A stretch of DNA of 64,000 bases, from the NCBI GenBank assembly GCA_946699065.1, contig CAMPDV010000017.1:744001-808000 (forward strand), given 5' to 3'. Shown here piece by piece: positions 10,759 through 63,493 of this stretch; position 1 is the stretch's first letter; every line of letters starts with the position of its first letter. Origin of the DNA: Loxodes magnus (lineage: Eukaryota > Ciliophora > Karyorelictea > Loxodida > Loxodidae). Both the position numbers and the translations under genes were made by a program. A model generated the notes under the pieces. The model was given only the letters and a program-made list of their open reading frames with translations. It was not told where the DNA came from and ran no database searches.

Positions 10759-11601
10759 ATTATAAATCTATATAAATAAAAAGATGGTGGAATGGAACAA
10801 AGGCTTTCTCGACTAAAAGGCTTCTCGTAGCTCCTTAGATCAATCTTTCCAGCTCTAACAAACTCCAACAAAGACAAAAAAGAAATAATATTGTAAAATC
10901 TCAGAAGAAAAATAATTTCCTTCCAAGATTTCAAAAAAAAGTTACACCTTCGAACAACTTATGAACTAAGATAAAAAGTCTCTTTTTTAAATACTTTTTT
11001 ATTTACATTGATAAGGTAGAGAACCTCAAGCATTACGTCATGAGTTTACAATAAGACTTATAAGATCATGTCGAGGACGAGAGACCGCATAATGAATTTG
11101 TGATCAAAGAGGACATTAACAACAGATATTAAGAAATAGAATGCGATATAGTAAGAATTGATGAATAAATGGGAAAAAATTTCTTAAAGTAGGAAAACAC
11201 ATTTTAATAAATGACGGACATAAAAAAGAGACTAGGAAAATTAGAGGAATAAGACCTAAAAAGAAATAATGATCCGATGGTAATAGAAGAATAACCTATG
11301 ACGACAGAAAAAATTTTAAAGAAAAAATGCTATATATGCGGCAGTTTATTCCACTTATGAAAAAAGTGTAGGAGGAATTGGTAAATAAGAAAAAATATTT
11401 GGAAAGAACTTACAAATTTTTATCCTTCCCCGGATGGTTACTTTGAAGAAAAAAGATAACTCCAAGACCATTCGGAAAGCTCGGAAGTGAACTTGGGTGG
11501 AGACACCTGCGAGTCCGAGATCCTGTAAAAGGTAATGCAGGGGGTTATGGACCTATTAAGGAAACATTCCCTTATCCATAAAATTTTTAATTTAATTTAA
11601 T
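10759..11601 (+). mobile_element. ORF1-only retroelement H1 (CCHC zinc-knuckle protein, frameshifted)
   Basis: This copy is about 97% identical to H2 at 50395-51211. The ORF starts at the ATG inside GGAATGG (10791-10793), has a coiled coil, and encodes the intact knuckle CYICGSLFHLWKKC (C-x2-C-x4-H-x4-C) near 11325-11370. Compared with H2, one extra A in the A-run near 10931-10940 and one extra base near 10995-11010 shift the frame, so this copy is damaged. The 3' end carries the hairpin TTATGGA..TCCATAA (11545-11581) followed by a (TTTAA)n tail. The flanks share TTACTACTTAA (10748-10758 and 11602-11612), a probable 11-bp target-site duplication, with about 25 unmatched bases before the conserved 5' end. 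Confidence 0.75.
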
Positions 11602-11612
11602 TTACTACTTAA

Positions 11613-12400
11613 TTTAATTCAAATTAAGAAGTTAAAAGAAACAATTCAGTCTAAATCTAAAATTTATTTACATAAAATATATTAAAAAATTGTTTATCAT
11701 GATGTTTTTAAGGTAGAAAAAAGATAATAGAAAAATATAAGAATAAGAGAATAATTAAAAGTTAATATATTAATATTAAAATTTAATAAATAAATTTTAA
11801 ATAATAGCAATATTTCATAACTAAGAAGCATTATAAGTTAATAAATGAAATCTCAAATATAACTAGAATATTCTATTAATAAAATTTATTCTATTAAAAT
11901 TATAAAAAATTAAAAATAATTACTAATAACTTAATCATGCCCATAATTTAAATCAATAAAATGAAATATGAAAGATTATATAATAAAAGAGCAAAAAAAG
12001 AAACAATTTATTTTAAATAAATATTAGTAACTTTTTTAACTTTTTTATTTATCTACTTTAATATTTTATTTCAATTAAAAAAATTTATATTTTTATATCT
12101 TTTTCAATTTTATATATCCTTGTAAATAAGAAAATGATAAAAATTTTGTTTATTTATATAAAAGAATAAAAAATGAAGTATTAGTAAATTTTAAAGAAAA
12201 TAAAATAAATTTGGAAATAAAAAGCTTATTGGTTATTAAATTATTTAAAAATAAGAATTGATTTATATAATTAATATTAACAACTTTTTACTAAAAATAA
12301 AGCATAAATAAAATAATTAATTTAAATTATTAAAATCTTAAAATATAGAAATATATATTAAAAATAATCTAATTAAACTTAAATTTTCTTAAAATATATT
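11613..12400. other. AT-rich spacer
   Basis: Extremely AT-rich and low in complexity. No gene, RNA or repeat boundary seen. Confidence 0.5.
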
Positions 12401-20829: not shown

Positions 20830-21865
20830 AAAATAAAAACTGTTTTTCACTTTTGTGTTACTAATATTTATCTTCACGTCTTCTCACCCTTAATGGCCAT
20901 CATCTCTCCATACCTTTTAAATTCATTTCTTTCTATAACTTTCACCTTCCGTTTTTACATAGAGTTTTCCAAAGTACTTTGAAATTTTGCTCTAGTTTTT
21001 ATTATTTATTTATTTATATCTTCAGCAATTCAAGTATATATGTCCAAATTTTTTACATATTTCGCATTTCTTTATATTTTTTGTAATAATATTGGGATTT
21101 TTCTCAGTTACCCAAGTTGTTTATTCTATTTGGCAATTTTATCTTAAAGATACTTAAGCTCGAAATTAAATTTATTCTTGAGTTATTGTCGAATTTATTG
21201 CAATTTTTTCCATTACAAAAAAAACTTTGAATAAAGTGCGCGTAGCACCTCAATGGTGCGCAGCACTATAAGAAATCAATTTTTAAATCTTTAAATTCCA
21301 ATATTCCTTTTGCATCTTCTCTTCTAATTATGGGCAAAGTTGCGGTTCCAATTCTCCAAAGCAAAGGATACCAACAGACGATTACAGGTAAATTTCCAAC
21401 CCATGATGAAGAAATTAATCTGGTCCAAAACTTGGAAGGTTTGCTTCTGAGTTAGTTCATCTTTGGGGAATTCTTTTAATATCTATAGAGGCAAGGTCCT
21501 CCCTATTTAATTAAATTATATAATAAATTTGGACATTAAGACTTCTAATGAATTATAGATTTAATTTGCTAAACTCTGATCTTCTTTTCTTTTGCTTTCC
21601 AGAAGCAATCTAAAATTTAGTTCTTCCTCTTTTAATACCTACATTTTTATTTTTATTTACTAAAATAAGGAATATAGCTATATCATTTCTTGATCATAGA
21701 CTTTCTCAAGCTTTTTTTCTTTTAAAATCTTGGATGTCCAATTTCTAGCATGAATAAAATGATCTTTTTTGAATTCTAGGTTCTTATTTGTCAATGGCCG
21801 ACTACGACTAGTCTGTTAGCTAAGAATTATAAATTTACATTTTAGGGTTTTTTTCCATTTTGATA
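20830..21865 (-). mobile_element. ORF1-type retroelement O, split by a nested short element
   Basis: Minus-strand 5' end near 21865 (ATG at 21856-21858). A coiled coil (LKEEELNFRLLLESKRKEDQ) is read from about 21700-21540. The intact zinc knuckle CEICKKFGHIYLNC is at about 21025-21075. The two parts are separated by the GC-richer block 21236-21510, which looks like a later insertion. The frame is not continuous along the whole element, so this copy is decayed. The ends and target-site duplication were not resolved. Confidence 0.5.
21236..21510 (-). mobile_element. Short SINE-like element S6 nested in element O
   Basis: Non-coding block, minus strand, ending in a strong hairpin (21236-21266) with GTGCTGCGCACC pairing to GGTGCTACGCGCAC. 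This is the terminal motif also seen at 3229, 3645, 54353 and 63892. Its 5' end is not exactly defined; it begins near AGGGAGGACCTTGCC. Confidence 0.5.
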
Positions 21866-25738: not shown

Positions 25739-26770
25739 AAATAAAACTACTGACTTAAAGAAGGGTTTTTTACCACTTTCTTAAAGAAAGAGAGAAACCA
25801 GGAACATCTTTTCTTGCTACATCTTAGCTTTAACTGACCCATTCTGTTTAAGAATAATAATTAATCAGCAAGAAATAAGCTTGAAAAATAAAGAAATAAT
25901 ATTCTCAATAATAGAAAATATAAAGAGACTTTCTTTTTCCAACAGACAAATAGGCATTAAAGAAACAAACAGAAAAGTAACTCAACTCTCAACACCTCCA
26001 TTGAAATCTAAAAAAGAGACAACTCAAATGAATCTCTAGAAATAATAATTAAAAAAATAATCAAGTCAAAGTACAATAATTCAATATGGACCCTGGTACC
26101 TTTTATTTAGATAATATTGAAATAGATAATGGACTCTTAAAGATGATACAGATAATATATCAACTTATAAAATAAATTAAAAAATTCGAAAATAAATTAA
26201 ACTCATAGAAAGAAGAAATGATCGAAATAAATCAAAACTTCATAAATCATGTAGATGATGATGAGGCCTATATAGTGAACCGAAGATATAAAGCAGGAAT
26301 CTATGAACGACTGACAGGGTTAGAAAATAACATTTTAATAATTTTAGAGAAAGACAATAAAATTGATTATAATTAGATTCAAGACTCCAATAAATTGAAA
26401 AAAATTGCCGACGTCTTCAAAAGGAACCCCATGGAAATAGAAAATAAAGAAAAAGCATTTCATAGAGCAAGTAAAAGATGTTACATTTACAACAGTACTT
26501 GACACTTGTGAAAGAAATGTTTTGAACAAAAAATAAGAAGTAACATCTGGCAAAATATAAAATTTATGGAATTGGAAGAAATAGCTACTGAATTTAATCC
26601 CTCAGTAACTGGAAAATTCGAGAGAAAGAAAAAATTTCGAATATAATATATAAAATAGCAAATAACTAGATGTTAAATGCAAGACAAAGAGAAAGTAGGG
26701 TTGTAAATTATTATATTACCAAATAAACTTTTACTTTTAAGCCGAAACGAAGTATTTTAATGACTAACGA
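25739..26770 (+). mobile_element. ORF1-type retroelement J, knuckle with Cys to Tyr change
   Basis: A 13-bp target-site duplication TTAATTCAAAATT flanks it (25726-25738, 26771-26783). The ORF resembles element C's N-terminus (LKKGFFTTFLKER against EGFKKGFYTTSS). It has a coiled-coil segment around 26150-26400 and the knuckle CYIYNSTWHLWKKC at 26484-26525, in which the second zinc ligand has become Tyr. The 3' end has a weak stem TACTT..AAGTA (about 26732-26754). Confidence 0.65.
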
Positions 26771-26783
26771 TTAATTCAAAATT

Positions 26784-27612
26784 TAAATTATAAAAAAATT
26801 AAAATTTAGATATCTAAGAACTCTATTGCATTAAAACTATCTAGATAATATAATATTCATAGAAAAATAAATAATTAAGACTTAAGAATCTAAAATGAAT
26901 AATTTAAATATTTAAGTAATAATTTCTTACTTTAAAGCTAAATTTATTTAATCATATGAATTTATTTTATAATCTAGATTTAATTTTATTTATAAGATAA
27001 ACATTATTACTATAAATTATTCCATTTTAAATACTTTAGTCTTAGAAAATATTTTCTCATATAAAAAATAAATTGAAATTAATTAAAAAAACTTATTAAA
27101 GAAAATAGTAAAAAATCTATAAAACTAGGAAATTATTTATTTTTAAAAACCTAATAGCAAAATCATCTTACTTAAACTCTTTTTAAGAATCTGTGAGATA
27201 GAAGTTTAGATTAAATAGATTTAGAGAAATTATGAAGAAGCAAAACAGATGAAACGTAAGATTTATAAAAAATAAGAGTTAAGAGTCATTATAAATAAAC
27301 AAGTAAAAGTAAGTTTAAGATAATAATTAATATATATTAATTAATTATAGAGAAATGCTAAAAAATAGTTACCTTATTAAAATTTTAGACAATAATTCTC
27401 TAATAATTCAAATATGAGGAAATTAATAATATTTATTTATTTTTTTATTTTAATAAGTTAATATAGAAATTTAACAAATAACTTAGTATTTTTCTTTCTT
27501 CTTTAAGTTAAAAACTAATGATCATATAGCAAGAAGCATAATTAGAATGATATTTTAATTTTTTTATAATAATTTAATTTATTTGAAAAGTTCTGATTTT
27601 TAATAATTAAGT
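26784..27612. other. AT-rich spacer
   Basis: No gene or element recognised. Confidence 0.45.
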
Positions 27613-29175: not shown

Positions 29176-29939
29176 TATAATAAATTTGATAAGCTCTCAT
29201 TTAAATAAATATTCTATTGGATATTATTTAAATTATGTTATAATTTAAATATAAATTAAAATAATAGCTAAATTTTCTAGTTTAATATAGTTTCATTATA
29301 GTTTACTTAATCATATTCATAAATTATTTTACTATTTATCCTTAATCTTTTAATTAACTATAATGTTATTAATTTCATTCTTTATAAAATCTTCTAGTCA
29401 ATTATTACATACAATAGCTTTATACATCACCGTTTAAATCCTAATCTAATTTGAGAATAATAGAGTATAATTAAATTAAAGATATATTAGATTATATAAG
29501 CTTAATATATTCAAATCACTATCAAATCTAATTAGATTATTTATAATTTTGCTAATGGAATCAGCTTTATATATATCTTTAACTTACTTTTATATATAAT
29601 TCATTTAGTTTTTTAGTTATTTTAATCTTAACTATTTGATAAAAGCTCTAAAGGTTATAGAATAAAGCTTTATTAGTTTTATTTAATATAAGAGGCATTT
29701 GGTAAGATATAAAATCTAATAACTAATTTTAAAAATTTATCTTTATTATGATTACCTTATTTCATAAAAACTTGCTTAATTTATGGGATTTCCCTTTTAA
29801 TTAAGACTTATTGTAAATTTTAATTTAACTTACCTTTTTTTCAAGAAATGTTAAGAATAGTTTTTTAAACTAATAAAGATCATTGAACTAAATAACCTTA
29901 ATAGTAAAATATTATGCTCTTAATGAAAAAGCAGCATAT

Positions 29940-30677
29940 AAATAATGAAATTAAAATGTTCAAAAGTGCCAATCTGGATCATTTTCTTCTGTAAATATCT
30001 CCATGCTAGTTGCAATAGAGCCTCTAGTATTTTTCTTATTCTTTATGCCAATATTTATTCTAGAAATTCTAAAATTTTTAGCAATTCTTGTACAAATGTC
30101 ACTTACTCTTACAGTAGTAGCATTTCTTCCTTATTTACCTGATTGATTTTCGATTTATAACCTCTTTTTATTCTAATTCCATCTAATTTGTCTAATTAGT
30201 TATGTTTGTGCTAATATTCTTTTGCTTAATAAACTCCAACTCTTGTTTTTATACGATATTTCCAAGCCTTACTGTTTCTTATCTATGTTCAGTTTAAATG
30301 TTCCAATATGCTTGGAGTTCCCTTTCTTAGTTAATAATTCTAATCTCTAAGTTATCTTATCCAAGCGATAATAAGTTTCTTAGTTCTTAATTTTCCTACT
30401 TAAGCACTTTAATCTCTTCTTAGAGATTGGATATTTCAAATACTAGCTGTTAAATATTGATTTCCTTTTTAATTATCTTTGATGGAAGTTCTTTTCCTGT
30501 TATTATATTAGATTACTTTCTTTTTATTACTTTAGGAGGTGTTTATTATAGTTATTAGGTTCTTTATTAGTTTTGTAAATAGGGAGAAGAAGACTCTTGA
30601 TACTTTTTTATGCCTGTTTTTTTTCTTCTTTGCTAAAGAAAAAGCCGGGAAAAAGATTTGAAGACTCCATATTTTTT
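29940..30677 (-). mobile_element. ORF1-type retroelement N with intact zinc knuckle
   Basis: Flanked by the 12-bp duplication AAAGCAGCATAT (29928-29939, 30678-30689). The site is empty in the paralogous segment (near 1890-1915, inverted). On the minus strand the 5' end is AAAAAATATGGAGTC. The protein begins MESSNLFPGFFFSKEE, has a coiled-coil-like middle, and the knuckle CYYCKSKWHLYKNC is intact at about 30070-30111. At least one frameshift separates the start from the knuckle. It is shorter than its relatives (738 bp), and its terminal hairpin is weak. A 65-residue plus-strand frame over it is only a shadow. Confidence 0.75.
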
Positions 30678-30689
30678 AAAGCAGCATAT

Positions 30690-32415
30690 TAAAGTTTAAT
30701 TGAAAATGATAAAATGAATAATAATGCTAATAGACTAAGTTATTATATTTATAAATATAAAGCAATAAAATAGCTTTGAGATAATTATATGTATTAATTT
30801 AGAATCTTATTAAGATAGAGTTATCTATGATAATTATTTTGCAATTATTTGTAATTTAACTTTATTTTAATATTTATTAGTTTATGTAAAGGCATTCATT
30901 TAATACTATTAGATATTCTAAAATATTACATTTAATAAATAGATAAATAATTTAAATGCTAAGCAAATGTTCTGAAAGATATATTAATATCTAATTTATT
31001 AGTTACTGTAAAAATTGTTATTTCAGTCATTAAGTCTTAATTATAACTATAAATCTATAAATATTTTTAAATACAGCAAAATCTTCTTTGCTTATCTAAT
31101 TTTATACTAGAATAATATCTTTAAATAAAAGTAAATCAATTATAATAAGCTACTATCAATTTAAAAGAGCCTTAGTTATCTTAAATTAAAATAATGTCAG
31201 CTATTATCTTAAAACTATAAAGATTTATTATTTCAAACTGAAAAATAACTTTTATTAATGGAACTAATAAAGTAACTTAAAAAAAGTGCTATCAATAATC
31301 AATTTTAATTGATAGAGTAAATAAACGGTATCTCTATTACGATAAAATTAATTGTGGTCTTATATCTATTAAATTATAGACGGAAAAAGAAATATGTTTA
31401 CATTTAGGGATTTTTTAAATAAAATAGTAATAATTATCTATTACTCACACTACTACTATCATATATCTTTTTTGCATTAAAAATTTTGGGTACTAAAAAT
31501 TAAGGAATTTTAGTGATATGGAAAAACTGTAGTTATTTACATCCAAATCATTTTCTAAGTTTAATAAATAAATTTATACTTCTTGGTATGTAGGTCTAAT
31601 TTGATTTTTGGAGAAGTTAGCTAAAATTTATAAAATTTTATGTCTATAAATAATTTAATCTTGATTGAATTAAAATCAACTTAAAGAATTCTTCATCTAT
31701 TTAATTTTATATAATTAAACTTGATTTTACATTAATCTAATACTTATCTTTTATAAACATAATTATTTGTATTTTCCTTTGTAAAATAACTGAAAAAATG
31801 AGAAGAATATTTATTAGTTAGCATTATAATGTTAGCAACTAAGACGATAGAGATATTAGTTTTATAATTTATTAATTACTTATAAAATAGAATTTATCAT
31901 TAAACATAATTTTAATGATTTCTTCTTATTTTAGATTATTTTATTTCTTATGTTCTATAACTAAAAATTATAAATATTTATACTTTAAAAATAAAAAAAT
32001 AAATGTTTTAAAAATATTCTAAAATATCAACCTTTAAAATTTTAATTTTGTTATAATAATTTACTATTAATAGCATATTTAAAGGATCATTAAGATATTA
32101 TTTAATCATTGCTTTGCATATATAAAAATAATTAGCTCAAAATTATTTTAATATCACTTCTTAATACATTTTTTATTATATTTTTTGTGATTTTTTACTC
32201 TGGTATCATAGTTTATTTGGAATTTCAAGACATTCCATTCAATTTACTTATTGTGGATAAACTTGAATTTTACTTCTTAAATTATTAAAAGCAGTAATTT
32301 TTAAAATTAAATATATAGATATTTTTATTTATCATGATATAAATATATTTATTTAACCATTTAATTTTCTTTTTATTTTAAATATAATTTTTTAAATTTA
32401 AGCTTAATTCTTATA
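30690..32415. other. AT-rich spacer of duplication copy 2
   Basis: Aligns in pieces with 1491-1860 (inverted), 2271-2775, 3270-3630, 4050-4310 and 4606-4950. No gene recognised. Confidence 0.5.
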
Positions 32416-32430
32416 AATCATATTAAATTT

Positions 32431-33415
32431 GGAATAAAAAAATGGAATAAAGCTTCAGAAAGGGTTTCTACATCACCTCCTCGTATTAGGAGAGGAAACC
32501 GGAAGCTATCTCTCGATAGTCGTCTTCTTAATAACCCTAACCTTTTTCTTAATAACCTTAATTATTCGGGAAATAAACCAACTACGAGGAACGAAAATAA
32601 GTCCAGAAAACAACACATGTGGAAACACCTACGTCACAAGAAAAACCTAGGAAGCAACTGAAATCAGCTCTACATCAGGAGGTTTCTGAATTTAATCCTT
32701 CTGGCCAGATGAGCATGGAGTAGCTCATCAAAGTGGTACTTAACCTCCAGGAAGAGGTTAGAAAGCTAAGGAAGGAGAACGAGAAGCTAGCCGAACAAAT
32801 CCAACATAGGTTACAAGAAACCCTAGATCTCAGGATGGCAAACTAGGAGAGGGAACTTTACGCTCTTTGGAATTACTAGCGAGAGTAATTCAGTTAGACG
32901 AACTCCTAAGTACAGAGAATTCAAGATTAGAGTCAACAGATCGAAAACATATTACAAAGCCAGAAAAACCTCCAAAAAAAGCAGAACCCACTGGAGTAGA
33001 ATTTAAATTCCGATAGGATGGAAATAGAATAGACCTCTAAATTGGAAATGCAACAAGTACCGAAGGCAAGAAAACTGTGCTATTATTGCAAGAGTTCATG
33101 ACACCTATGAAGACAATGTGCAGCTTTCCAGAAAATCAAGGAGAAATCTTGGAAAAGACAAGTCCAAATATCATTAAGGAGAAAGAAAAATTAAATTTGA
33201 TGCAGAGAAAATGGGGAAGTATATAGAAAAAAATGGGATCTCGAACCTGAAAAACTTGGAGTAGGAGCAAGAACTAAATAAATTGTGAGAAAAAAGACAA
33301 GATGAACAAGATTCAAGGGAATTACGGTTAAACTCAAGTAAGAAAATTCTAATTTTAAAACTTCTTTTAAGCGGTGACTTGATATCACTGCCAAACAATT
33401 TTAATTTAATTAATT
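32431..33415 (+). mobile_element. ORF1-only retroelement A, intact reference copy
   Basis: A perfect 15-bp target-site duplication AATCATATTAAATTT lies at 32416-32430 and 33416-33430. The element is 985 bp: an A-rich 5' end (GGAATAAAAAAATGG), one ORF filling almost all of it, a 3' hairpin GCGGTGA-CTTGA-TATCACTGC (33371-33391), and an AT tail. No reverse transcriptase or endonuclease is encoded. The structure points to target-primed reverse transcription by a LINE machinery supplied in trans. The insertion is absent at the paralogous position near 4940. Confidence 0.9.
32442..33377 (+). CDS. ORF1-like coiled-coil / CCHC zinc-knuckle protein of element A
   Basis: 311 residues in one frame from ATG 32442 to UGA 33375-33377. 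The N-terminus is rich in Ser/Gln. Around residues 68-100 is a block conserved across the family (EKPRKQ, SALHQEV, FNPSGQMSMEQLIKVVL). A coiled coil follows (LQEEVRKLRKENEKLAEQ and on to about residue 190), then the zinc knuckle CYYCKSSWHLWRQC at about 213-226 and a basic tail. The layout recalls retroelement Gag or LINE ORF1 nucleic-acid chaperones, which bind element RNA. The stop codon lies in the 5' arm of the 3' hairpin. This is the cleanest copy in the window. Confidence 0.8.
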
Positions 33416-33430
33416 AATCATATTAAATTT

Positions 33431-33922: not shown

Positions 33923-34902
33923 AAAAAAAAAATGGAATAAAGTTTCAGGAAAGGCTTCTATACCACCTCTTCCTAAGCCAAAAAGGAAGAGAGGAAGCAG
34001 GAAACTATCTCTTCTCTGTCTTCTTAATAATAACCTTAATCTTCTTCTTAATAAAAACCTGAAACTTAACAAGATTAACAAAAGATAACCTTAAAGACAG
34101 CCCATACGGAAACCCCAACCCCAAGTGAAAAACCGAGGAAGCAGATGAAGTCTGCTCTCCACCAGGAGGTCTCTTAATTTAATCCTTCTGGCCAGATGAG
34201 CATGGAATAGCTCATAAAAGTAGTACTAAACCTCCAGGAAGAGGTTAAAAAGCTTCGCAAGGAGAACACGAAGTTGACGGAGCTGATCTCTCATGGAATT
34301 TAAGATACACTTGATCTTAGAATGGCCAATTAGGAGAGGGAACTCGACGCTCTTTAGAATTACTAACGAGAGTAATTTAGTTAGACGAACTCCTAAGTGC
34401 AAAAGATTCAAGACTAGAGCTAGCAGATCGAAAATATCTTACAAAGTCAGAAAAGCTTCCAAAGTTAGCAAATTCCATTGGAGTAAATTCTATCTGATAA
34501 GATGGAGATCGAGAAGAATCCTTAAGTTAAGATGAAAACTAATCAAAAACCTCGGATTGTGAAACTGTGCTACTATTGTAAAAGTAAATGGCACAAATGG
34601 AAGAACTGCGGTGAGTTTCGTAAAGTAAAAGAAATACATGGAAAAAACAAGTCTAGCAAAGAATAAGAAAGAGCAAGAACCAGATCTGATGTAGAACAAA
34701 TGGAGAAGTCTACAGATTGAAAAATAACCTTGAACTGGAAGAATTTGGAGATAGAGCTAAAATGAAATATAGTGGGAGATGAAAGATCAGAGGAGCAAGA
34801 CTCAAGAATCCTAGAACTAGAAACTAACAAGATAAAGATAACTTTAAAACTTCTTTTTAGTGGTGACTAATTGGCGCCACAAAACAATTTAAATTAAATT
34901 TA
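33923..34902 (+). mobile_element. ORF1-only retroelement B
   Basis: A perfect 16-bp duplication AATTGAAGTTTCCCTT flanks it (33907-33922, 34903-34918). It is closely related to element A. The ORF from ATG 33932 is open through the coiled coil (NLQEEVKKLRKENTKL) and the intact knuckle CYYCKSKWHKWKNC at 34569-34610. One base near the C-terminus puts the family's terminal UGA (34864-34866) out of frame. The 3' hairpin GTGGTG..CGCCAC (34860-34880) has different bases from A's but the same pairing. Confidence 0.9.
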
Positions 34903-34939: not shown

Positions 34940-35870
34940 TTTAATTTATTTAATATTGTTTAGCAGTAGATTTCACATCTGACGCTTAAAATAAGCTTAT
35001 AAGTTTTATCTCTCCTCCAGTTGGTTTATTCCTCGTCGTCTTCTTCCAATAGGTCTTGTTAAATTCAGTCGCAGTGTATCTTGATTCAATTTTCTCTTAT
35101 AGATTCCTCCTTCCCAATTGCAAAACAGCATTTCTCTTTCCTTTTTTTCCTTGATTCAGTTTTTTTCTTGAATTGATAAAATTTCTTGCACTACTTGTAT
35201 AAGTGACCTTGTTAGCAACAAAAGTAGCATTTATTTAAAAATCTAATCTTCCTTGCTGTTCTTCCATTTGACTTGCTTCCTCCTATTTCCTCAATCTCCA
35301 TTTTGCAGTTTTAGTTAGGTTCCTTTTCAATTTGTTCCACTTGTTGTTGACTTTAAATTTTAAATTCCAATTGTGTATTTTAGCTCTGAATTTATTGTAT
35401 CTAAGATTTTTTCTAACTATTTTATTCTTTCTGGTACTTTCATAAAGCATCAATCTCCCTTTCCTAATTGACCATTCTAAGATCAAGTGTATCTTAAATT
35501 CCATGAGAGATCTGCTCTGTCAACTTCGTGTTCTCCTTACGAAGCTTTTTAACCTCTTCCTGGAGGTTTAGTACCACTTTTATGAGCTATCCATGCTCAT
35601 CTGGCCAGAAGAGTTGAACTCCGATACCTCCTGGTGTAAAGCCGACCTCAGTTGCTTCCTATGTTTCTCATTTGTTGGAGTTTCCATATGGATTGTATTT
35701 AGGTCTTGCTTTCGTTACTCTTGTTAATTTCCAGGTTATTAAGTAAGAAAAAGTTAGGGTTATGAAAAGAAGTCTGCTAAGAAATGGTTTCCTGCTTCCT
35801 CTCTTCTTTTTGGCTAAAGAAGAGGTGGTATAGAAGCCCTTTTTGAAACCTTCTACCATTTTTTATTTTC
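34940..35870 (-). mobile_element. ORF1-only retroelement C
   Basis: An 18-bp duplication AATAAATTTAATTTTTAA flanks it (34922-34939, 35871-35888). It lies just 20 bp beyond element B's right duplication, on the opposite strand. The minus-strand ORF starts MVEGFKKGFYTTSSLAKKK (ATG complement near 35858-35860). It has the conserved HQEV/FN..GQM block and a coiled coil, and the knuckle CYFCCQQGHLYKQC is intact at about 35184-35225. The 3' hairpin is at 34962-34986 (AGC..AGAT/ATCT..GCT), then an AT tail. Minus-strand frames of 60-70 residues in this block are fragments of the standard-code reading. Confidence 0.85.
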
Positions 35871-35888
35871 AATAAATTTAATTTTTAA

Positions 35889-36442
35889 ATATAAAAGCTA
35901 ACTTAAGAATAAAAGCCTTTATATCAATATACATAATTTAACGATAGAGGTTAAAATAAGTTTATTTTGAAATTAAACAAACTTATTTAAATTCTTACCA
36001 AATATAGAAAGAGATTAAAGCATTTCAATTATTATTATAAAATTAGATTTAAAGCATTCAAAATTAATGTTAAAGTTTATTGATGATAATCTATATTTAA
36101 TTATATTCAAAATAACTAAAAATTATACTAAATGTATTTTTAAATAAATTTAAATTTTAGGCATCTTAATTTAAATGTAATACATAATTTATATTCTAAG
36201 TGAATAAATCTATTTTAAATAAAAATAAAAATAATTTATCTTAAATTTAATTTATATTTATATCATAATTTAATTAAAACCATTCATCCACTTAAATGTT
36301 TACATACATTCATCCTTTCAATTCTTTCTTTTAAACGTAAATGAAAATATTAGTTCTATTTATTAAATATTATTTAAAAAAATTAGCTTCATTTATTTAA
36401 CTTATTTAAAAAGCTAAAGTTATAACCTTTTAAAACATGAAA
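35889..36442. other. AT-rich spacer downstream of receptor gene copy 2
   Basis: Aligns with 5640-6140. No gene recognised. Confidence 0.5.
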
Positions 36443-39400: not shown

Positions 39401-40400
39401 CTGGGATGATTTGACCATTTGATTTAAATATTAAGTCTTTAAACAATTAAAAGCTTTCTATTAGATTTAAATGATAATTTTGAATTTAAAATTAATTCAC
39501 TTTATCTATTAAAGTTAAGATTTACAAGATGTAGTATGTTGACATTTCATAATAGTTAGAAGGAATAAATCCTTTAGGTGTTAAGGCTATCATTCCATTA
39601 TCTAAAATATCGATATGAATTTTAGATAAAATATGTATTATTTAAGTTATTTCTGGCTTTATTAGATTCGAAGATTCTAGTCCTATTACTCAAGCAAAAT
39701 TTTATCCAGCCATTTAGTAAAATGTACACATATTCAAAATATAGCCTTGTCAACATAAATCTGCTTACATCAGTATTATTGATGAACCTTCAAATCTGAT
39801 AGCTCTAGGAGTTTCAGTTAGCAGTCTTTCTTATATGCTACTTTGATTGCACTGATCTTAGTTTAAACCAAAGTAAGAATTTAGAGGAATATTCACAGAT
39901 GTGACTATTTTAGAGATGGATTAGTCTATAAATTCAGCAGGCTTGTAGAATCTTTTTTCTTATTAGTTGATATAAGAAATCTTCTTGAACTTCAAATGCT
40001 AGAAAAGAGTTTGTAAAGCTTATCCTTCTTATTAATAGGTAGGCATTATCCAGTATAAATTATCTTGACTTAAAGGTTAATCAGTTCTATAAGCAACTAA
40101 ATGTATAAAATGAGGATATAGTTAGTGTAGTCTATTAGTGTAATATAAATTGAATGTAATATCCAATATTATTTTTATACTAAAGATTCTTACTAATCTC
40201 TATATTTCTTATGTTTTGAAATTCTAAGTTTGTAGTTATAAAGGAATAGGAGTAAATTAAGTGCTATTAAATTTACTTTTATAGACCTAGTAAGAAATAA
40301 AATCCGATAAAAAGGGAATTGTTTAAGGAGAGCTCACAATAAGTATATTTATCGAGTGAACTTGTAATAAAACAGCAAAAGCTAATAAAGCTTTCAGCAT
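36443..40400 (-). CDS. Receptor-like multi-pass membrane protein, copy 2 (one 16-nt intron)
   Basis: 1,313 residues after removal of the intron 36628-36643. It starts MLKALLAFAVLLQVHS, a signal peptide, and ends DDTLNLSKF-UGA (36443-36445). Total coding length is divisible by three, with the frame kept from start to stop, as in copy 1. It has the same architecture: a large extracellular ligand-binding-like region, seven or eight membrane helices, and a charged cytoplasmic tail. Divergence from copy 1 is clearly higher in the extracellular part (for example the insertion/deletion differences near 38660-38700 and 39060-39110) than in the membrane region. Both genes look functional, which suggests a receptor family diversifying in its ligand-binding part. 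Substrate and signalling partners are unknown. Confidence 0.75.
36628..36643 (-). other. 16-nt intron in receptor gene, copy 2
   Basis: Identical to the intron of copy 1 (minus-strand GTAAGTTTCTATATAG). Removing it joins TTN|ELKQ in frame, parallel to AKN|ALEQ in copy 1. Confidence 0.8.
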
Positions 40401-43534: not shown

Positions 43535-44513
43535 AAGAAAAAATTAAAAAATGGTTGAAGGTTTCAAGTCAGGCCTCTATACCACCTCTTCCTAAGCCAA
43601 AAAGGAAGGGAGGAAGCAAGAAACCAAGTCTTAATAATCTTAACAATCTTCTCTATCACAACCTTAACCAACACTGAACTAACAACTTGGAATCTAACAA
43701 AAGAACAAAAGCCAACCTTGAAGAATATACACACGGAAACACCAGTCTCAGCTGAGAAACCGAGGAAGCAGATGAAGTCTGCTCTCCACCAGGAGGTATC
43801 AGAGTTCAACCCTTCTGGCCAGATGAGCATGGAGTAGCTTATCAAAGTGGTATTGAACCTCCAGAAAAGGTCAAGAGATTGAAGAAGGACAATGATATGC
43901 TGATGGCAAAGCTAGGCCTAGCAGAATGAATTGAGTCAAGACTTATGTCCTAGGAAAGAGATCTTAACGTCTTTTGGAATATCTCACAAAGTCAGACTAA
44001 CGAATCCTAAAATTAGCTTTAGAAACAGACTGAACTGGATAACAGACTTGGAAAAGTAGAAGAGAAATTGTAAACTTTTAAGAAAGAGTAAAGCGAAACT
44101 GGAGCTATGCAAATGGAAATCGAAGCCTAGAAAGAGCAAACAAATCAAGGAAAATAATTCAAAATAAAAAAGAAATGTTTCTGCTGTGGAAGCGTATGAC
44201 ATTTTTATCGGAAGTGTTAGAAATTCTAATAGAAATAAAGAAACTATTGGATAAAAGAACAAAAAAAGAACAAAAAAGAAGAAGTAAGAATGAAAAGAAT
44301 GTATTGCAACCTGGATGGTTCAATATACAAGATCAAGATGGAACCATATCAAGTAAAAGAAAGGAAAACCTGGAGAAACCCGAGTTCCCAATCTCGCTAA
44401 AATTGGACGTCTTAAACATTTATATTTAACAGCAGGGAGCATGAACTGCTGTCCTCCTGACGGGGTTGGAAATCCCTAAAACGGAAAACTTAAACTTAAA
44501 ATTAATATTATTA
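43535..44513 (+). mobile_element. ORF1-only retroelement D
   Basis: A 15-bp duplication TTATTTAATTTATAG flanks it (43520-43534, 44514-44528). It begins AAGAAAAAATTAAAAAATGG with ATG at 43551. The protein starts MVEGFKSGLYTTSSQAKKEG. The conserved EKPRKQMKSALHQEV / SGQMSMEQLIKVVLNLQ block is present after a frameshift. The knuckle CFCCGSVWHFYRKC is intact (44176-44217). The 3' end has two hairpins, CAGCAG..CTGCTG (44430-44451) and GGGG-TTGGAAAT-CCC (about 44462-44476). The GGGTTGAAAT-CCC motif is shared with elements E and F, which form a subfamily with it. Confidence 0.85.
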
Positions 44514-45296: not shown

Positions 45297-47980
45297 AATG
45301 ACGATGAATATTGACTTAATTATAATAAAGAAAATCTTGAATGAGGATAAGAACTTGGGTAGGGTAGTTTTGGTACTGTTTATGAAGGAAAGTGAAATAT
45401 TAGTATGAACGTTGCTATAAAATAGCTTTTGAGCATTAACTTGACTGAAGATGTCAAATTTGATTTTTAGAATGAAATTTTAATTATGAATAAAATTAGA
45501 ATCCTAATATTGTTTTACTTTATGGTTGGTGTCCTAATCCTATGTGTCTTGTCATGGAAATTGTGACTTGTTCATTATATACCTTTCTACATAGCTTAAA
45601 AGACATTTCTTGAGATTTAGGATACTAAATATGCTTAAATATAACTTAAGGATTGCAACATTTGCATATTTTAAATATAATCCATAGAGATTTAAAAAGT
45701 ATGAATGTTTTATTAAATTCCAACTCAAGAGAAAATATGTGATTTCGGTCTTTCACGAATCGAATCACCATCTAAATCTTTAAGTACATAACGAAAAGTT
45801 GGAACAATTCGCTGAATGGCTCCTGAACTATTCGGAATGAAATCTGAATACAGTTACTAATCAGATATTTATGCATTAGAAATAATATTTTAAGAAATAT
45901 CAAGTAGAAGAATATCTTTTGAGTTTGTTTAAGATGGAAAATTAAAAGAAGATATAAAAAGTGGAGAGAGATGAAATAGCAGAAAACTGTCCTACAATTT
46001 TTAAAGAATTAATAGAAGGATACTGGAAATAAGAAACTAGCCAAAGAATTAGTTTAGAATAAATTAAGAAAAAATTGAATCCTTTTTGATTATTAGAAAC
46101 TGATTTTCCTGAATCTGTTAAAAGTAACACGAAATAAAATGTTCAAGAAGATAAATAAAACGTATTGACAGATAAAATTTTATAAGTAAGGCTTAGAATA
46201 GCAAAAGATTCATATGAAGGAGAAGTTTAAAATGCTAAAAAGCATGGATTTGGATAAATGAAATAAAAAAATGGAAATAGCTATTAAGGATAATGGATTG
46301 AAGATTTAAAGTAAGGAAAAGGAATTTATAGCAGTGCAAATGGAGAACTATATTAAGTAGAATTTTATAAAGATTTAAAACATTTATGTGGTGTATTAAA
46401 GTATTAAAATGGTGATAAGTATGAAGGAAATTTTTACTTCAGATTTAAATAAGTCTAAGGGTTATATTAATATGAAAACGGTGAATCGTATTAAGGAGAG
46501 TTTGCAAAAGATTAAAAAAATGGATATAGTGATATGAAATGATGGATCTAAATATGAAGGATAATATGTTGAAAATTGCAAACAAGGAAAAGGCAAATAT
46601 ACATATTCAAATGTTAGCTTTTATAATAATAATAATACTAATTTAAATGTTAAATGTTTAGAGATCTTTAAGGAATTTCAACCTCGTGATCTCAGGACCG
46701 GTTTTTTGAATTGGCCGAAACTAATCCCCTCTGCTACTCTTCTACAATCCCTCTTGCACGTTATATCATTTTGGTTTGTAAATCTATCCTTTGGTCGTTG
46801 GATAGAACTAACTGCAAAAATAGTCTCGTTGCTATAATTACTATTTGTAAAGTTATTTTTCTTGATTCTATTTTTTCCAATATTATTGTTTAATTTTTTA
46901 TAATTTTCAGCATTATCAATATTTGTGATTCCTGTTTCCACAAACTTAGCATTTTGGTTTAGGAATCTTGAATTTTTTATTCTAGATCTGATGCTGTAAT
47001 GGATAATTCCTAGACTCAATACCCATTGCCGAGGTTTGCTTCTGAATCAGCTCTGCTTACCATTGGGAGTAAGCTTCAACATCTGCTTCATCCGGAATTC
47101 CTAGAGCTATTCCTATTGAGCGAACAGTTTTTCCTACTGAGCCTATTTCATTGAATACACCATTTTATTCCCGATCGTAGGGCTCCATGAAACTCTCTTT
47201 CCATTCTTAGATGTCTGCAATCTAAGTCCTGAGGTTTCTATTTCCAATCCTGAGTTTCTTGATTTCCTCTTTGAGCTCTGAAAAAGATATCAGGATTTAT
47301 GCCTGTTCCTCTTGATACAGCTGCATAATGAATTCTCTTACAGCAGCTGCTTCTTAAGTCTCCAGCACTTTTCTTGGTTCTTCTTCTTCGTTTGGTGTGA
47401 CTTAATTTCCTTTTTGCCTCTTTATGCCCGTCTTTTTTGTTATTAGAGGAGTTTCTGGTCTGTTACTGTTTAAATTTTTGACCCCCTGCCTTGCTTCTTA
47501 GTCTCTTCAAAAGCAGAATAGGAGCTTTTTTGAAATCTTTCTACCATTTTTTTTAATGGTAGCTTTTATTAAGGAGACTTTTATACGGATAAAAAGCATG
47601 GGTAAGGAATAATGAAATGAAAAAATGGAGAAATGTATTAAGGAGAATGAGTAGAAGATTAAAAAGAAGGATATGGAACATATATTTATGAAAAGGGTGA
47701 AGTCTATAATTGTCAATGGTTTAAAGGTAAAATGCTTGGATAAGGAGTTATGAAATGAAACGATGGGAAAAGATATGAAGGAAATTGATTAAATAATTTA
47801 AAGCATGGAAAAGGAATACTATAATATTCAGAAGGAAGAATATTTGAAGGAGAGTTTTTATTTGATCAAAAACATGGTTTAGGAATAGTGAAATTGTCGA
47901 ATGGATAGAAATTTTAAGAAGGAGGAATTGAAGGAAAAGGCAAAAATTTAACTCAATATATTTCTCAAAAAGGAAATTGA
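45297..47980 (+). pseudogene. TKL-type protein kinase with MORN repeats, pseudogene interrupted by element E
   Basis: All kinase motifs can be seen, but in different frames: glycine loop GQGSFG, the VAIK lysine, HRDLKSMN, CDFGLSR and WMAPE, the last typical of tyrosine-kinase-like kinases. The C-lobe leads into MORN repeats (YQGQWIEDLKQGKGIY, YEGNF, YQGEF). Single-base losses near 45499, a small deletion near 45735, and shifts near 45963 and 46540 break the frame. Element E (46625-47554) then splits one MORN repeat: KYTYSN | GSFYQGDFY rejoin across it. More MORN repeats follow (KHGQGIMKWKNGEMYQGEW) to tandem UGA codons at 47978-47983. No in-frame ATG was found before the kinase domain. In life such proteins anchor a kinase at membranes; this copy is dead. 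Confidence 0.8.
46625..47554 (-). mobile_element. ORF1-only retroelement E inserted in the kinase-MORN gene
   Basis: The target-site duplication AATGKTAGCTTTTAT lies at 46610-46624 and 47555-47569 with a single mismatch. It lies within MORN-repeat coding sequence, and removing the element plus one duplication restores the repeat. The minus-strand ORF begins MVERFQKSSYSAFEE, contains PNEEEEPRKVLETQEAA and a coiled coil (SFSELKEEIKKLRIGN), and has an intact knuckle CQVCGNRNHKYWQC at about 46900-46942. The 3' end holds GAGATC..GATCTC (46661-46693) enclosing an AGG-TTGAAATT-CCT stem. The 113-residue frame at 46678-47019 is part of its C-terminal region in another frame. Confidence 0.9.
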
Positions 47981-49527: not shown

Positions 49528-50394
49528 CTCGTAAATCAGCAACCTCCAAAGTTAATTCTTCTTAATAGTCAGAGCTCAACAATGAGAAATCTCTAACAGA
49601 GGATATTTTCTACTGTTAAAAGTTTAAGTATCAGTGTATTTTTTTGTTGGTTTGTGGAATAAGATTTATTTGATTTTTTTCATCTTAATTGTTTCTTTTT
49701 CCCTTACTGCAGAAAACCTTTATTCCAAATTGACATCATTTTTTTACAAAATAATGCAAATACTCTAAAATTAATCAGTTTTTCAATCTTCATTAAATTT
49801 TTAGCCTTCGCTTATATGGAAATTTTATCTAATTTAAAAAAACTCAAAAGACCTTTATTTACCACGGTTTCGTTTTATTTTATCAAACTCCAGGATTCGA
49901 TATTTTCTAAATTAAGAAATGACTCCTCTCTTAGTAGTTAAATTCTAAAAACTATAAGCTAAAACTTATTTTTCTTTATTCCTATATATTGAATATTTAT
50001 AATTCTCTATCATAGAATATTTTGCATAAAAATTCTTCTTACTATCTTTTCTGCTAGACTTAATATCTTTAATGGATTTCAATTTCGTCACTATTTTTTT
50101 ATGATTTAAGACTTCTATAAAAAATTTTAAAGATTTAAAGCAATATCAAGCTGACTTAACATTTTTATGCACATTCTATCAAAATTAGTTTACTAAGATT
50201 ATTCCTTTTCATTAATTGAAGAGAAAAAAATTAAAAAATCTTAAGTATTCTTCCAAACTTTTTGTCATAAATAAGTTTTTTAAAGTTATATGTTATTTAT
50301 AATATATGATATTTTGTTAAGTCTTTTAACTTCATTATGAAAATTAAATATTATAATTTTAATTTATTATATAATTAAGCTACTTGATATTATA
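49528..50394. other. Spacer with possible element remnant
   Basis: On the minus strand, ATG near 49745 opens MMSIWNKGFLQQGKKKQ, reminiscent of element starts in this window, followed out of frame by a coiled-coil-like EEL..EVADLRDEVAIL. There are no hairpin, knuckle or target-site duplication. Nothing else is recognised. Confidence 0.3.
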
Positions 50395-51211
50395 GAAGGC
50401 GGAATGGAACAAAAGCTTTCTCGACTAAAAGGCTTCTCGTAGCTCCTTAGATCAATCTTTCCAGCTCTAACAAACTCCAACAAAGACAAAAAAGATATAA
50501 TATTGTAAAATCTCAGAAGAAAAATAATTTCCTTCCAAGATTTCAAAAAAAGTTACACCTTCGAACAACTTATGAACTAAGATAAAAAGTCTCTTGTTTA
50601 AATCATTTTTGATTACATTGATAAGGTAGAGAACCTCGAACATTACGTCATGAGTTTACAATAAGACTTATAAGATCATGTCGAGGACGAGAGACCGCAT
50701 AATGAATTTGTGACCAAAGAGGACATTAACAACAGATATTAAGAAATAGAATGCGATATAGTAAGAATTGATGAATAAATGGGAACAGATTTCTTAAAGT
50801 ATGAAAACGCATTTTAATAAATAACGGACATAAAAAAGAGACTAGGAAAATTAGATGAATAAGACCTAAAAAGAAATAATTATCCAATGGTAATAGAAGA
50901 ATAACCTATGAGGACAGAAAAAATTTTCAAGAAAAAATGCTATATATGCGGCAGTTTATTCCACTTATGAAAAAAGTGTAGGAGGAATTGGTAAATAAGA
51001 AAAAATATTTGGAAAGAACTTACAAATTTTTATCCTTCCTCGGATAGTTAGATTTGAAGAAAAAAGATAACTCCAAGACCATTCGGAAAGCTCGGAAGTG
51101 AACTTGGGTGGAGACACCGGCGAGTCCGAGATCCTATAAAAGGTAATGCAGGGGGTTATGGACCTATTAAGGAAACATTCCCTTATCCATAAAATTTTTA
51201 ATTTAATTTAA
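50365..51211 (+). mobile_element. ORF1-only retroelement H2, coding copy
   Basis: Twin of H1 (about 97% identical over 800 bp), 40 kb away and in the same orientation, so insertion of this subfamily is recent. The ORF opens at the ATG in GGAATGG (50404-50406) and is continuous through the knuckle. The 3' hairpin TTATGGA..TCCATAA lies at 51156-51192, followed by a (TTTAA)n tail. TATAATTTTAATT at 50352-50364 and 51212-51224 is a possible 13-bp target-site duplication. As with H1, about 35 extra bases separate it from the conserved 5' end, and the low complexity means this could be chance. Confidence 0.75.
50404..51060 (+). CDS. Coiled-coil / CCHC zinc-knuckle protein of element H2
   Basis: The ORF begins MEQKLSRLKGFSQLLRS and continues in one frame. 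A coiled coil (DYIDKVENLEHYVMSLQQDL, then DIKKRLGKLDEQDLKRN) leads to the knuckle CYICGSLFHLWKKC at about 50939-50980. The C-terminal end is not resolved; I mark the region past the knuckle to about 51060. It shares architecture, not close sequence, with the A-type proteins. The role is inferred to be RNA binding in retrotransposition. Confidence 0.65.
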
Positions 51212-51224
51212 TATAATTTTAATT

Positions 51225-51696
51225 AATTAAAATCTTACTATTTCCTCATTTAAATTTTTAAAAGTTAATGTAATTTGAATTTTTATTAATTTAAAGTAAT
51301 TTAAATTATTAAAGGTTTTACAATTTATAAATATTTTCTTAAATTCATATTTTTGATAAATTTCATCTATTTGAATTAGTGGAAAAAATAGTATTTAAGA
51401 TAAATTAAAATTGAAAAGTTTATAACTATAATTTTTAACTTTAAATAAAATTAAATCTATAGTCAATTTCAAAATTAAATCTGCTTTATTAATAAATAAA
51501 GATGATCAAATAAAAGCAATTTTAAAATAAGAAATGATTTAATATTTATTGAAATTGTTAATATTTATAAAAAGTCTTAAAAAATTATTTTTAATATATA
51601 TTAAATTATTCTGAAAAGTTTTAATATAATAGAGTGCTAAATACCTAAATTTTAGATTTAGCAATGCCTTATCAGGTGTTCTTTCCTCTTGAATAA
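51225..51696. other. AT-rich spacer
   Basis: No gene recognised. Confidence 0.45.
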
Positions 51697-53160
51697 TCAA
51701 CGTCTTAATATATTTCTCTGCTTTTAAGTGTAATCAATTTTTTAATCCTTCTCAATTTTAAAGGATCTTAATTTTTTTAATTTTTTATATTATTAATTAT
51801 TTATAGATAAATTACTAAGCCTCTCTGCTATTTTTTTTAGTCGAAAATTAACCTCTTGCTTTCCGATTTTCTGTTAGTTCCCTATTTAATTAATTATTTT
51901 CTTGTAAATACCTAATATAGTTTATAACAGAGTTTTAATTGTTTCCTTTACTTCCAAGACTTAAAATTTTAGGATCTGTTTCTCTGAGAATATTTATTAT
52001 TTCTCTTTTATTAATTCATAGTTAAAGTTGCTTACTTTTTTGCTTTATAAGATATTATAGATAGATAAATTAAAGTTTGGTGATCATGAGGGTATTTCAA
52101 CCCCTTCACACTGACCTCTAGATTTCTCCAGAAGTTAAAATTGAAAGTTTAAATTTTGCTACTTCCCATCATCTTGCCTTGCTTTCTTTTGAGTTCTTCA
52201 ATTCCACTAGTCCTCTTTCTTTTTGTAAATTTCTCAAGTGCATTCATATAAAGCATCTTTCTCTATCTTCTTTGTTGCAGTTGGATCTATCTCTTCTTTT
52301 TTTCTTGCTATTTTCTTTAGTTCTTCCAATATTCTTATTTGAACTTTAGAAATTCCTTGAATTTTATTCATAGGTGCTTTGCCGAGTTGCAGTAGTAGCA
52401 TCTCTTGACTATCTTGATTGGCTTCTCCTTCGTTTCTTTGTCAGTTCTCTCAATCAACATTGGATCTCCCTTTTGTTTGCTTAGCTTTCCTTCAAGTTTT
52501 TCCAATCTATTGCTCAGTTCCGATTGTTTCCGAAGCTAATTTTAGGATTAGAAATTCTGATCTTAGGATATGTTCCAAACGGCGCTTAGTCTCTTTCCTA
52601 GGACATTAGTCTTGATTCTATCTCTTCAGCTATGTTAAGCTATTGCATAAGCTTTCATTGTTCTTCTTGAGTTTCCTAACCTCTTCCTGGAGGTTCAGCA
52701 CCACTTGGATGAGCTATTCCATGTCCATCTGATCAGAAGGGTTGAACTCAGATACCTCCTGGTGGAGAGCAGACTTCATCTGCTTCCTCGGTTTCTCAGC
52801 TGAGACTGGTGTTTCCGTGTGGGTTGTCTTTGAGGTTTGCTTCCGTTTCACTTGTTAGATTCCAGGTTATTAAGAAGAAAAGGATTAGAGTTATGAGAAG
52901 AACGACTGTTAAGAAGTGGTTTCCTGCTTCCTCCCTTCCTTTTTGGCTTAGGAAGAGGTGGTATAGAAGCCAGGTTTGAAACCTTCCACCATTTTTTTTA
53001 TCCTTTATAAGATATTTATTCCTTTTTTAATATAATAATATTAATAAATTAATTTGAATCCTCTTTTAAATAATTATCATGGCTTTTGTCAAAAATATGC
53101 CAGTAAAGCTTTGATAGGATTCAATCTTGGCAATTTTGGTTTAGATTTTATAGCATCCAT
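51697..53160 (-). pseudogene. Small Lys/Gln-rich ORF interrupted by element F
   Basis: If element F and one target-site copy (960 bp, a multiple of three) are removed, a 167-residue frame runs from the ATG complementary to 53158-53160 (MDAIKSKPKLPRLNPIKALL) to UGA 51697-51699. It includes coiled-coil-like stretches (LEVKETIKTLLQ, VNFRLKKIAERLSNLSINN). No family is recognised. The reading depends on a single copy, and another frame over 51850-52040 is also open. It may be an older ORF1-type remnant or a small gene killed by the insertion. Confidence 0.35.
52057..53002 (-). mobile_element. ORF1-only retroelement F, knuckle with Cys to Phe change
   Basis: A perfect 14-bp duplication CTTTATAAGATATT flanks it (52043-52056, 53003-53016). 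The minus-strand ORF begins MVEGFKPGFYTTSS (5' end AAAAAAAATGGTGG near 53000). It keeps the ETPVSAEKPRKQMKSALHQ block and coiled coil and has CYYCNSAKHLWIKF, in which the last zinc ligand is Phe. The 3' end carries AGGG-TATTTCAA-CCCCT (52089-52105), the same stem as in D and E. A 63-residue plus-strand frame here is a shadow. Confidence 0.9.
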
Positions 53161-62645: not shown

Positions 62646-63493
62646 AAAAAATGTCGGACTTCAAAAAGGAACTTTTTAGCTCCTAAGAAATAGTAGGCTA
62701 CCATGTAGCGAAAATAGGAGGAGAAAAAACAGATTCAAAAAGTTGCACATGTAATAATGCCAACATCGATAAAAAATCCAGGAAGCAAGTGAAGTCAGCT
62801 TTGCATCAAGAGATTAAGGAATTCAATTCCTCTGGCTAGATGAGTATGGAATAATTCATCAAAGTAGCACTAAACCTCCAAGAAGAAGTCAGAAAGTTAG
62901 AAAAGAGAATGAGAAGCTGACAGAAAGATCCAGCACGGACTTCATGACACCTTAGACCTCAGAATGGCCAATTAAGAGAGGGAGATCGACTCTCTTTGGA
63001 ATTACTAACGAGAGTAATTCAGTTAGACGAATACCTAAGTGGCGAGGATATAAGCTAAAAATTCTTAGATTGAAATTTTTTTTTACAGAGTCAGAAGACA
63101 CAGATTTAACTAGAACAGAACGAAAAGATGAAGATTGAAAAAACTCCTCAAGAAATAAAGAAAGAATAAAAATTGATTAGGATTAAGAAACTAGACTATT
63201 ATTGTAAAGGTAAATATAATCTGTGGAAGAACTGTGCAGAATTTTGTAAAGTCAAGGAAAAATAATGTAAAAAACAAATCTAATAACGGATAAAGAGAAA
63301 AATTAGATCTGGTGAGTAGAGAATGGAGCGTTTACAGGTTGAAAATGGATTTGGATCCAGAATTAGAAATTTTAAGATAGAAATACAACAAGTCAAGAAT
63401 CTCGAGTGCTAGAGCTCGTAAAAACTAGACTCAAACTTCGAAATTTTTTTTAAGCGGTGATTTGTCGGACACCGCGAACATTTTAATAATATT
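62646..63493 (+). mobile_element. ORF1-only retroelement G, decayed, inserted in the right arm
   Basis: The 14-bp duplication AATAYTCTATTCAA lies at 62632-62645 and 63494-63507 with one mismatch. The left arm preserves the empty site at 15031-15044 (complement of the same 14 bp). It begins AAAAAAATGTCGGAC. It retains the HQEI/FN..GQMSMEQFIKVALNLQ block and coiled coil, but the knuckle is DYYCKGKYNLWKNC, with the first Cys and the His both lost. The 3' hairpin GCGGTG..CACCGC is at 63454-63475. The element sits exactly at the stop codon of the membrane-protein gene fragment. Confidence 0.9.

Follow-up and report, generated by a model that had tools for sequence, protein, structure and literature searches.

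Probable non-autonomous retroelements with a single gag/ORF1-like reading frame in the karyorelict ciliate Loxodes magnus

Described elements that lack a reverse transcriptase

In the ciliate Paramecium tetraurelia, seven solo ORF1 elements (A-G) have been described that encode nothing but an ORF1 with a zinc finger at its end; mobilisation in trans has been suggested for them (PMC5405496). We analysed a stretch of 64,000 nucleotides of the Loxodes magnus genome, hereafter termed the window, and found units that likewise combine a ciliate host, an ORF1 with a terminal zinc finger and the lack of a reverse transcriptase (RT). The Loxodes units are repeat-tailed, as are three of the seven Paramecium elements, which carry a (TAAA)n 3' repeat (PMC5405496). 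Compared by description only, the Loxodes units differ in that their knuckle is followed by a C-terminal motif and their 3' end bears a hairpin. In addition, the Paramecium zinc finger resembles that of the ORF1 in LINE groups 1-3 (PMC5405496), whereas our searches in Loxodes found no LINE with an ORF1 of the type carried by element A, the main unit of this study. ORF-only retroelements in ciliates are already known from Paramecium, in contrast to the preliminary description of this DNA, which held that no such family had been described in ciliates; the Loxodes units add another case.

The protein of HeT-A, an element of Drosophila telomeres, is a knuckle-bearing Gag. To our knowledge, an action in cis of the element's own protein on the RNA of an RT-less element is an open point for HAL1, HeT-A, and the solo ORF1s. 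HeT-A resembles element A in encoding no RT, and the one that it uses is likely that of another element; HeT-A (PMC5537684) is telomeric, whereas element A inserts in AT-rich sites with target-site duplications (TSDs). Mammalian HAL1 is, like element A, non-autonomous and encodes ORF1p alone, and it derives from L1 (PMC5753468), whereas element A has only its 5' end in common with a LINE known here. A 5' end shared between autonomous and short elements is represented by the 77-nt Pr77 of trypanosomatid L1Tc/ingi elements (PMC4748587, PMC4035085, PMC8190864). In contrast to Pr77, no HDV-like ribozyme was found in the Loxodes window, in which nothing reached an Rfam gathering score.

The published description of the Loxodes genome reports LINEs, many unclassified repeats, and Helitron labels that are likely spurious (PMC11441545). 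The words CCHC, SINE, ORF1, nonautonomous, and gag are absent from its main text, and in the open-access literature we found nothing on solo-ORF1-type elements in Loxodes.

Element A and the marks of its insertion

Element A lies where the preliminary description had placed it, and its ends are sharp, with copies elsewhere starting and ending alike and then diverging. Its features are as follows.

32431..33415, + strand: element A, a complete ORF-only retroelement (genome matches; ends seen in 37 copies)
32442..33377, + strand: ORF of element A, 311 codons followed by TGA (translation under table 27; stop chosen by inference)
33078..33119, + strand: CCHC knuckle CYYCKSSWHLWRQC, in which both W codons are TGA
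33198..33236, + strand: C-terminal motif WCRENGEVYRKKW, with similar motifs in units B, C, E and G
33371..33391, + strand: 3' hairpin GCGGTGA-loop-TCACTGC, from folding, enclosing the terminal TGA
32413..32430, no strand: left copy of the TSD, score 15
33413..33430, no strand: right copy of the TSD, score 15

The element is 0.98 kb long and is composed of an A-run, an ATG, a single frame of 311 codons, a 3' hairpin, and an AT-repeat tail. The frame is read with a reassigned code, as had been proposed: TAA and TAG encode Q, and TGA encodes W as well, with two sense TGA codons in the knuckle. These were found at codon 220 in all 23 A copies and at codon 223 in 22 of the 23, and unit B has TGG at the corresponding positions. 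The karyorelict code is table 27, in which UGA is read as tryptophan or as stop (PMC11441545), and RVT_1 matches in the assembly read through three to nine TGA codons, with seven to nine in most of the 150 matches listed. Counted from the inferred terminal TGA, the 3' UTR of element A is 38 nt, and the published median for Loxodes is 41 bp (PMC11441545); an alternative stop is the TGA at codon 288.

The predicted protein runs from a Q/S-rich start through an E/K/L/Q-rich stretch and an MEIE motif to the CCHC knuckle and the C-terminal motif, the pattern of which matched five times in the window compared to no match in the reversed window. Because a Pfam scan of element A gave nothing better than E 0.51, the term knuckle refers to the motif and its recurrence among units. 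A search of the PDB returned one match at chance level (E 0.068), and no relative was found in viral contigs or in phage records.

Searches of the 705.7-Mb assembly gave 3832 loose candidates for element A, the best 40 of which comprise, besides the window copy, 39 copies that are 90-95% identical over nearly the full length; this choice by best score is biased towards full-length copies. We fetched 37 copies with their flanks; they represent 22 independent sites, and 15 were dropped from the TSD and decay counts as same-site duplicates. The fetched copies begin at the same A-run and ATG, finish in the same hairpin and AT repeat, and diverge beyond, two of the A copies (L056 and L106) starting about 20 nt further in.

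Flanking repeats that are not duplicated in most copies had been named beforehand as an observation that would speak against independent ORF1-only elements, and the opposite was seen. None of the 23 sites of the A family (22 plus the window copy) scored below the 95th percentile of control pairs with left and right flanks swapped, and 21 exceeded it, with a mean score of 15.2 compared to 8.0 in the swapped controls. The best-matching flank stretches measured 11 to 29 nt, with mismatches in the longest. At least one A copy is truncated at the 5' side (L107, which begins near nt 534 of element A in DNA unrelated to it), and another (C135, L119) matches nt 1-91 of the last 95 nt of element A and lacks the A 5' end where it would be expected, consistent with 5' truncation. 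Furthermore, the site of unit F, described below, is uninterrupted in the other arm of a 5.7-kb inverted duplication, near 15031-15045; the duplicate of element A is too diverged for an exact placement of the empty site, and the site of units B and C could not be placed.

Elements of the non-LTR type insert by target-primed reverse transcription, which characteristically leaves variable TSDs, 5'-truncated copies, and a repeat tail. With variable TSDs, 5' truncation, and a precise empty site, the A-type units spread by non-LTR-type retrotransposition. Their earlier classification as ORF1-only elements of the non-LTR type agrees with our findings of a single ORF with a knuckle, TSDs, 5' truncation, and no RT or endonuclease within a unit. 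Overall, the units are very probably non-LTR retroelements of a non-autonomous kind, each coding for a single gag/ORF1-like protein and no RT. That they are instead remnants of a DNA transposon or Helitron is barely credible: their TSDs vary in length, a 3' repeat tail is present, 5' truncation occurs, and the Pfam scan detected no transposase or helicase domain in element A. In favour of a Helitron origin, a repeat family is labelled "Unknown/Helitron-2" in a figure legend of PMC11441545 and might correspond to A-type units.

Related units in the window and selection on the reading frame

At least 13 units in the window are related to element A by sequence, 5' start, or knuckle, namely A-G, the 5' half of H, I, J, X1, X2, and Y; the letters are labels of this analysis and cannot be mapped onto those used before. 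At least 15 units of one layout had been counted previously; the A-rich 5' ends, the 3' hairpins, and the AT tails of that layout were seen here as well, and the lower count is the one we reached. The units other than element A for which positions were set are listed here.

33923..34899, + strand: unit B, 71% identical to A, frame changes after the knuckle, TSD score 16
34940..35870, - strand: unit C, 72% identical to A over the first half of C, frame changes, TSD score 18
52057..52995, - strand: unit D, knuckle damaged, TSD score 15
43535..44513, + strand: unit E, frame changes, TSD score 15
62646..63492, + strand: unit F, site uninterrupted in the other arm of the duplication, TSD score 12, as high as the best control
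29943..30677, - strand: unit G, with knuckle, TSD score 12, matching the highest control
46625..47554, - strand: unit Y, with knuckle, TSD score 12, matching the highest control
10782..11624, + strand: unit X1, 95.7% identical to X2, alignment stopping at both ends
50394..51233, + strand: unit X2, pair of X1, TSD score 10, not above control
21523..21863, - strand: unit H, represented by its 5' half alone and abutting a SINE-like repeat (genome search)
25754..26800, + strand, 3' end approximate: unit J, with the 5' signature (score 48 to the F1 5' end) and a knuckle minus one Cys

TSDs of 12-18 bp had been reported for ten units, and this was borne out in part. Against a control of 90 swapped pairs (95th percentile 10, maximum 12), eight of the ten units tested scored 12-18, F, G, and Y among them merely equalling the control maximum, and X2 failed with a score of 10. 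Unit H scored 8, an unfair test given that its 3' end belongs to another repeat. The window yielded no tRNA or Rfam match, and the ORF is under selection; the units are therefore unlike SINEs, which are non-coding and carry a pol III promoter. The tail of the F type occurs at 10 places in the genome, of which the one in the window was read.

The knuckle C-x2-C-x4-H-x4-C, placed close behind K or R, was found in nine units (A, B, C, E, G, I, X1, X2, and Y) and not once in the reversed window. One cysteine is missing in units D and J. All four ligands are kept in six of eight A-family proteins (A and seven copies), L058 and L074 being without the last cysteine, and N113, C213, C216, and H221 are invariant in an alignment of 13 relatives.

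Several other repeats were noted in the window. The block at 21.2-21.9 kb was considered as an ORF-only unit with a LINE tail and rejected, as it consists of the 5' half of H and, joined to it, a separate SINE-like repeat of about 310 bp: apart from the window itself, the scored matches to the block as a query cover either positions 2-346 (four matches) or 334-663 (35 matches), and none of them covers both. The hairpin and T-run at the end of this SINE-like repeat (21206-21527, - strand) are those of LINE F1b, and 35 of 40 scored matches cover the repeat alone. A second repeat, of about 850 bp and bearing an ORF, starts with ATGGCTTCTAAGAAATAA (MASKKQ) and extends on the - strand from 20758 to about 19900, with a duplicate near 56930-57780 on the + strand; other genome matches place its 3' end near 19864-19908. 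The idea that this MASKK repeat shares the LINE F1b tail was dropped, since in the three copies fetched the tail is preceded by AAGGCTTTAACAAAG, in contrast to F1b, and the TSD scores of all three (6, 8, and 7) do not exceed the control (6-10). Its 736-nt query gave 40 scored matches that cover it nearly in full, two being the window's own and the other 38 about 94% identical. A repeat of about 420 bp, present at 3620-4031 and 54327-54743 as a pair of 83% identity with an F1-like LINE tail, is perhaps another SINE family. The window also contains the inverted duplication 15031-20779 / 56905-62645 (5.7 kb, 98.6% identical), with unit F in one arm, and the direct duplications 5550-10190 / 35861-40451 (84%) and 1-1493 / 28094-29585 (99.3%); A, B, and C sit in gaps of an extension of the former direct duplication.

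Comparison between families revealed purifying selection on the ORF, with changes private to single A copies being near-neutral. For A and B, dN/dS was 0.17 in frame and 1.07 and 1.12 out of frame; the in-frame value was 0.19 for A-C and 0.17 for B-F, the other two frames of these three pairs ranging over 0.80-1.16. A frame effect was seen in six of seven pairs, weaker in B-C (0.43) and B-D (0.40); it was absent in D-E (0.56 versus 0.58 and 0.75), and for A-F the corrected ratio is undefined (pN 0.26, pS 0.77). Bootstrapped in-frame pN/pS values were 0.31 (0.24-0.40) for A-B, 0.41 (0.34-0.50) for A-C, 0.36 (0.28-0.45) for B-F, and 0.33 (0.26-0.42) for A-F, and in all four pairs codon position 3 was richest in differences. 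Along the A-B alignment, pN was lowest at codons 1-25 and 76-205 (0.10-0.11), and codons 276-311 were unconstrained (pN 0.34, pS 0.31). A count of synonymous and nonsynonymous changes in the knuckle had been suggested beforehand; for A-B the knuckle was not the best-kept part (pN 0.28, pS 0.97), the coil-like stretches having a pN of 0.10.

Within family A, private changes numbered 260 nonsynonymous to 114 synonymous, a ratio of 2.28 compared to 2.37 expected without selection, and shared changes 93 to 49 (1.90). The plain pairwise pN/pS was 0.54, lowest at codons 76-130 (0.36); this value owes partly to the mutation spectrum, yet the decay of family A is not purely neutral. Because the ORF is selected between families while private changes look neutral, the protein appears to matter for spread. 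That copy-making lineages keep the protein would be best explained by its acting on its source RNA, and the earlier suggestion that the protein may do so is favoured by the selection between families.

Retrocopies of a host gene family, that is processed pseudogenes, would equally be expected to show purifying selection between families, and they would fit the near-neutral changes inside one. We nevertheless consider this origin improbable, as the units end in a hairpin and AT repeat instead of a poly(A) tail, have a 5' end in common with a LINE, and number at least 13 in 64 kb. It is also unlikely, if slightly less so, that the ORF is a passenger, with LINE proteins alone moving the element and the protein selected for a cellular role. 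The modest conservation of the knuckle between A and B relative to the coil-like stretches would suit a passenger; selection in several families at once would be simplest if each needs its own protein.

The 5' end shared with LINE F1 and the search for an RT donor

The first ~70 nt of element A nearly match the 5' end of LINE F1, which is abundant in the genome, and the 5' ends of B, C, and D likewise beat all of their shuffles against F1. The corresponding features are given below.

32437..32506, + strand: 5' signature common to element A and LINE F1 (local score 67 versus a shuffled maximum of 30; 0 of 2000 shuffles as high)
32463..32500, + strand: possible 5' hairpin inside the ORF of A, with counterparts in B, C, D, J and F1

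The possible hairpin was assessed in eight distinct sequences. Paired cells reached 96.6% compared to 89.8% in shuffles (0 of 500 as high) and the covariation score 0.351 compared to 0.203 (0 of 500), in tests that related rows inflate; slid versions attained at most 78.2% pairing and 0.221 covariation. Three pairs change on both sides, a count not above shuffles (258 of 500), nor is the number of pair types (491 of 500), and the minimum-energy folds of unit E and of F1 copy L112 do not contain the hairpin. The 5' signature probably represents a promoter or an RNA element that was either passed down from a LINE or exchanged with one.

LINE F1 measures about 5.5 kb in the copy read, encodes an endonuclease (E 4e-13) and an RT (E 2e-35), and may belong to the LINE families of 5-6 kb described in PMC11441545. 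Its start was seen in three of four F1 5' regions. F1 thus has in common with A the 5' signature and the possible hairpin, and differs in its endonuclease and RT, in the remaining body of its ORF1, and in its 3' end, a different hairpin followed by a (TTTA)n tail. At the protein level, the match comprises about 21 N-terminal residues (E 1.6e-5, against the F1 and F2 proteins), so that the likeness to HAL1 drawn in the preliminary description is a loose one.

These data bear on whether the units arose from one full LINE by deletion, in the manner of a true HAL1, with ORF1 kept and ORF2 lost. The shared first ~70 nt would be in line with such a descent, as would the F1 ORF1, which starts with MVSFKKGFYTTSSEQERKPE and is followed by a CCHC knuckle in another frame of the copy read. 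However, no window unit matches the F1 or F2 proteins beyond about 21 residues at E 1e-3, and F1 has another hairpin and tail. A HAL1 is a LINE minus ORF2 with the same 3' end; the F1 tail differs, and no other donor was present among the scored matches. Likewise, no match was confined to the tail among the best 40 of 109 candidates for the last 95 nt of element A: all 40 match from nt 4 or before to nt 89 or beyond, over at least 86 nt. Being parts of a longer element with an internal RT had been named in advance as an outcome contrary to independent units, and among these 40 near-complete 3'-end matches no such element was found. We regard HAL1-type descent as possible though unlikely, a better prospect than either retrocopies or a passenger ORF, and retain the reading of the units as non-autonomous elements in their own right.

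The search for an RT donor gave the following results. The A tail occurs at 34 places in the genome within two mismatches, compared to none for the reversed pattern; 22 of them are among the best 40 A matches, and seven more were read, of which five (L105, L106, L120, L121, and L122) have the A 5' part or nearly so, L107 is the truncated copy, and C135 is without it. None of the best 40 A matches lies within 10 kb of an RT match (150 of 3403 listed) or an endonuclease match (150 of 2075 listed), and a search of the window with the RT and endonuclease sequences from F1 and F2 gave no match. No LINE with the A tail was found among the matches listed, the LINEs read being F1, F1b, F2, and a few loci of other clades. 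F1 itself is mildly disfavoured as donor: two F1 copies were scored, and neither showed a detectable TSD (both 8, against controls of 7 and 9). The LINE loci L077 (F2) and L082 revealed no A-like ORF1 or tail, the 3' end of L082 not having been located. In L083 and L084, a weak match to the knuckle (E 0.27 and 0.10, respectively) lies outside the frames of the LINE and may represent a separate decayed unit in each; the 3' end of L084 was likewise not located.

Two further observations concern LINE-related sequences. The lineage of L080 and L083 seems to end in CAATATTCTTAAATATTG and AAACTATTATATTTTAATTAATTAATT, loosely like the AT tail of element A. Contigs C5131 and C20 contain tandem RT matches with a period of 2532 bp in both and of 2504 bp in C5131.

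With regard to the proposed mobilisation in trans, the units must borrow an RT, none being encoded within them, and the mobilising LINE was not found among the matches listed; by exclusion, element A would be mobilised in trans by a LINE. The element RNA would be transcribed from its own 5' end and then translated, and the resulting protein would bind the RNA from which it came, for which reason the ORF would be kept by selection. The RNA would subsequently be passed to the RT and endonuclease of a LINE, which would recognise the 3' hairpin and tail and copy the RNA in by target-primed reverse transcription.

Selection between families together with near-neutral changes in single copies argues that an element requires its own protein in order to spread. 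We tentatively suggest, as a picture that is less likely than not, a karyorelict ecology of RT-less elements: many diverged families, each with a gag-like protein under purifying selection for its own RNA, might combine a 5' hairpin module common with an abundant LINE with a different 3' recognition tail, the 5' and 3' control modules being reassorted between LINEs and protein-coding satellites. No extensive DNA elimination is reported for Loxodes (PMC11441545), and such copies would therefore stay in the transcribed nucleus. A-type units may make up part of the large unclassified repeat fraction of the Loxodes genome.
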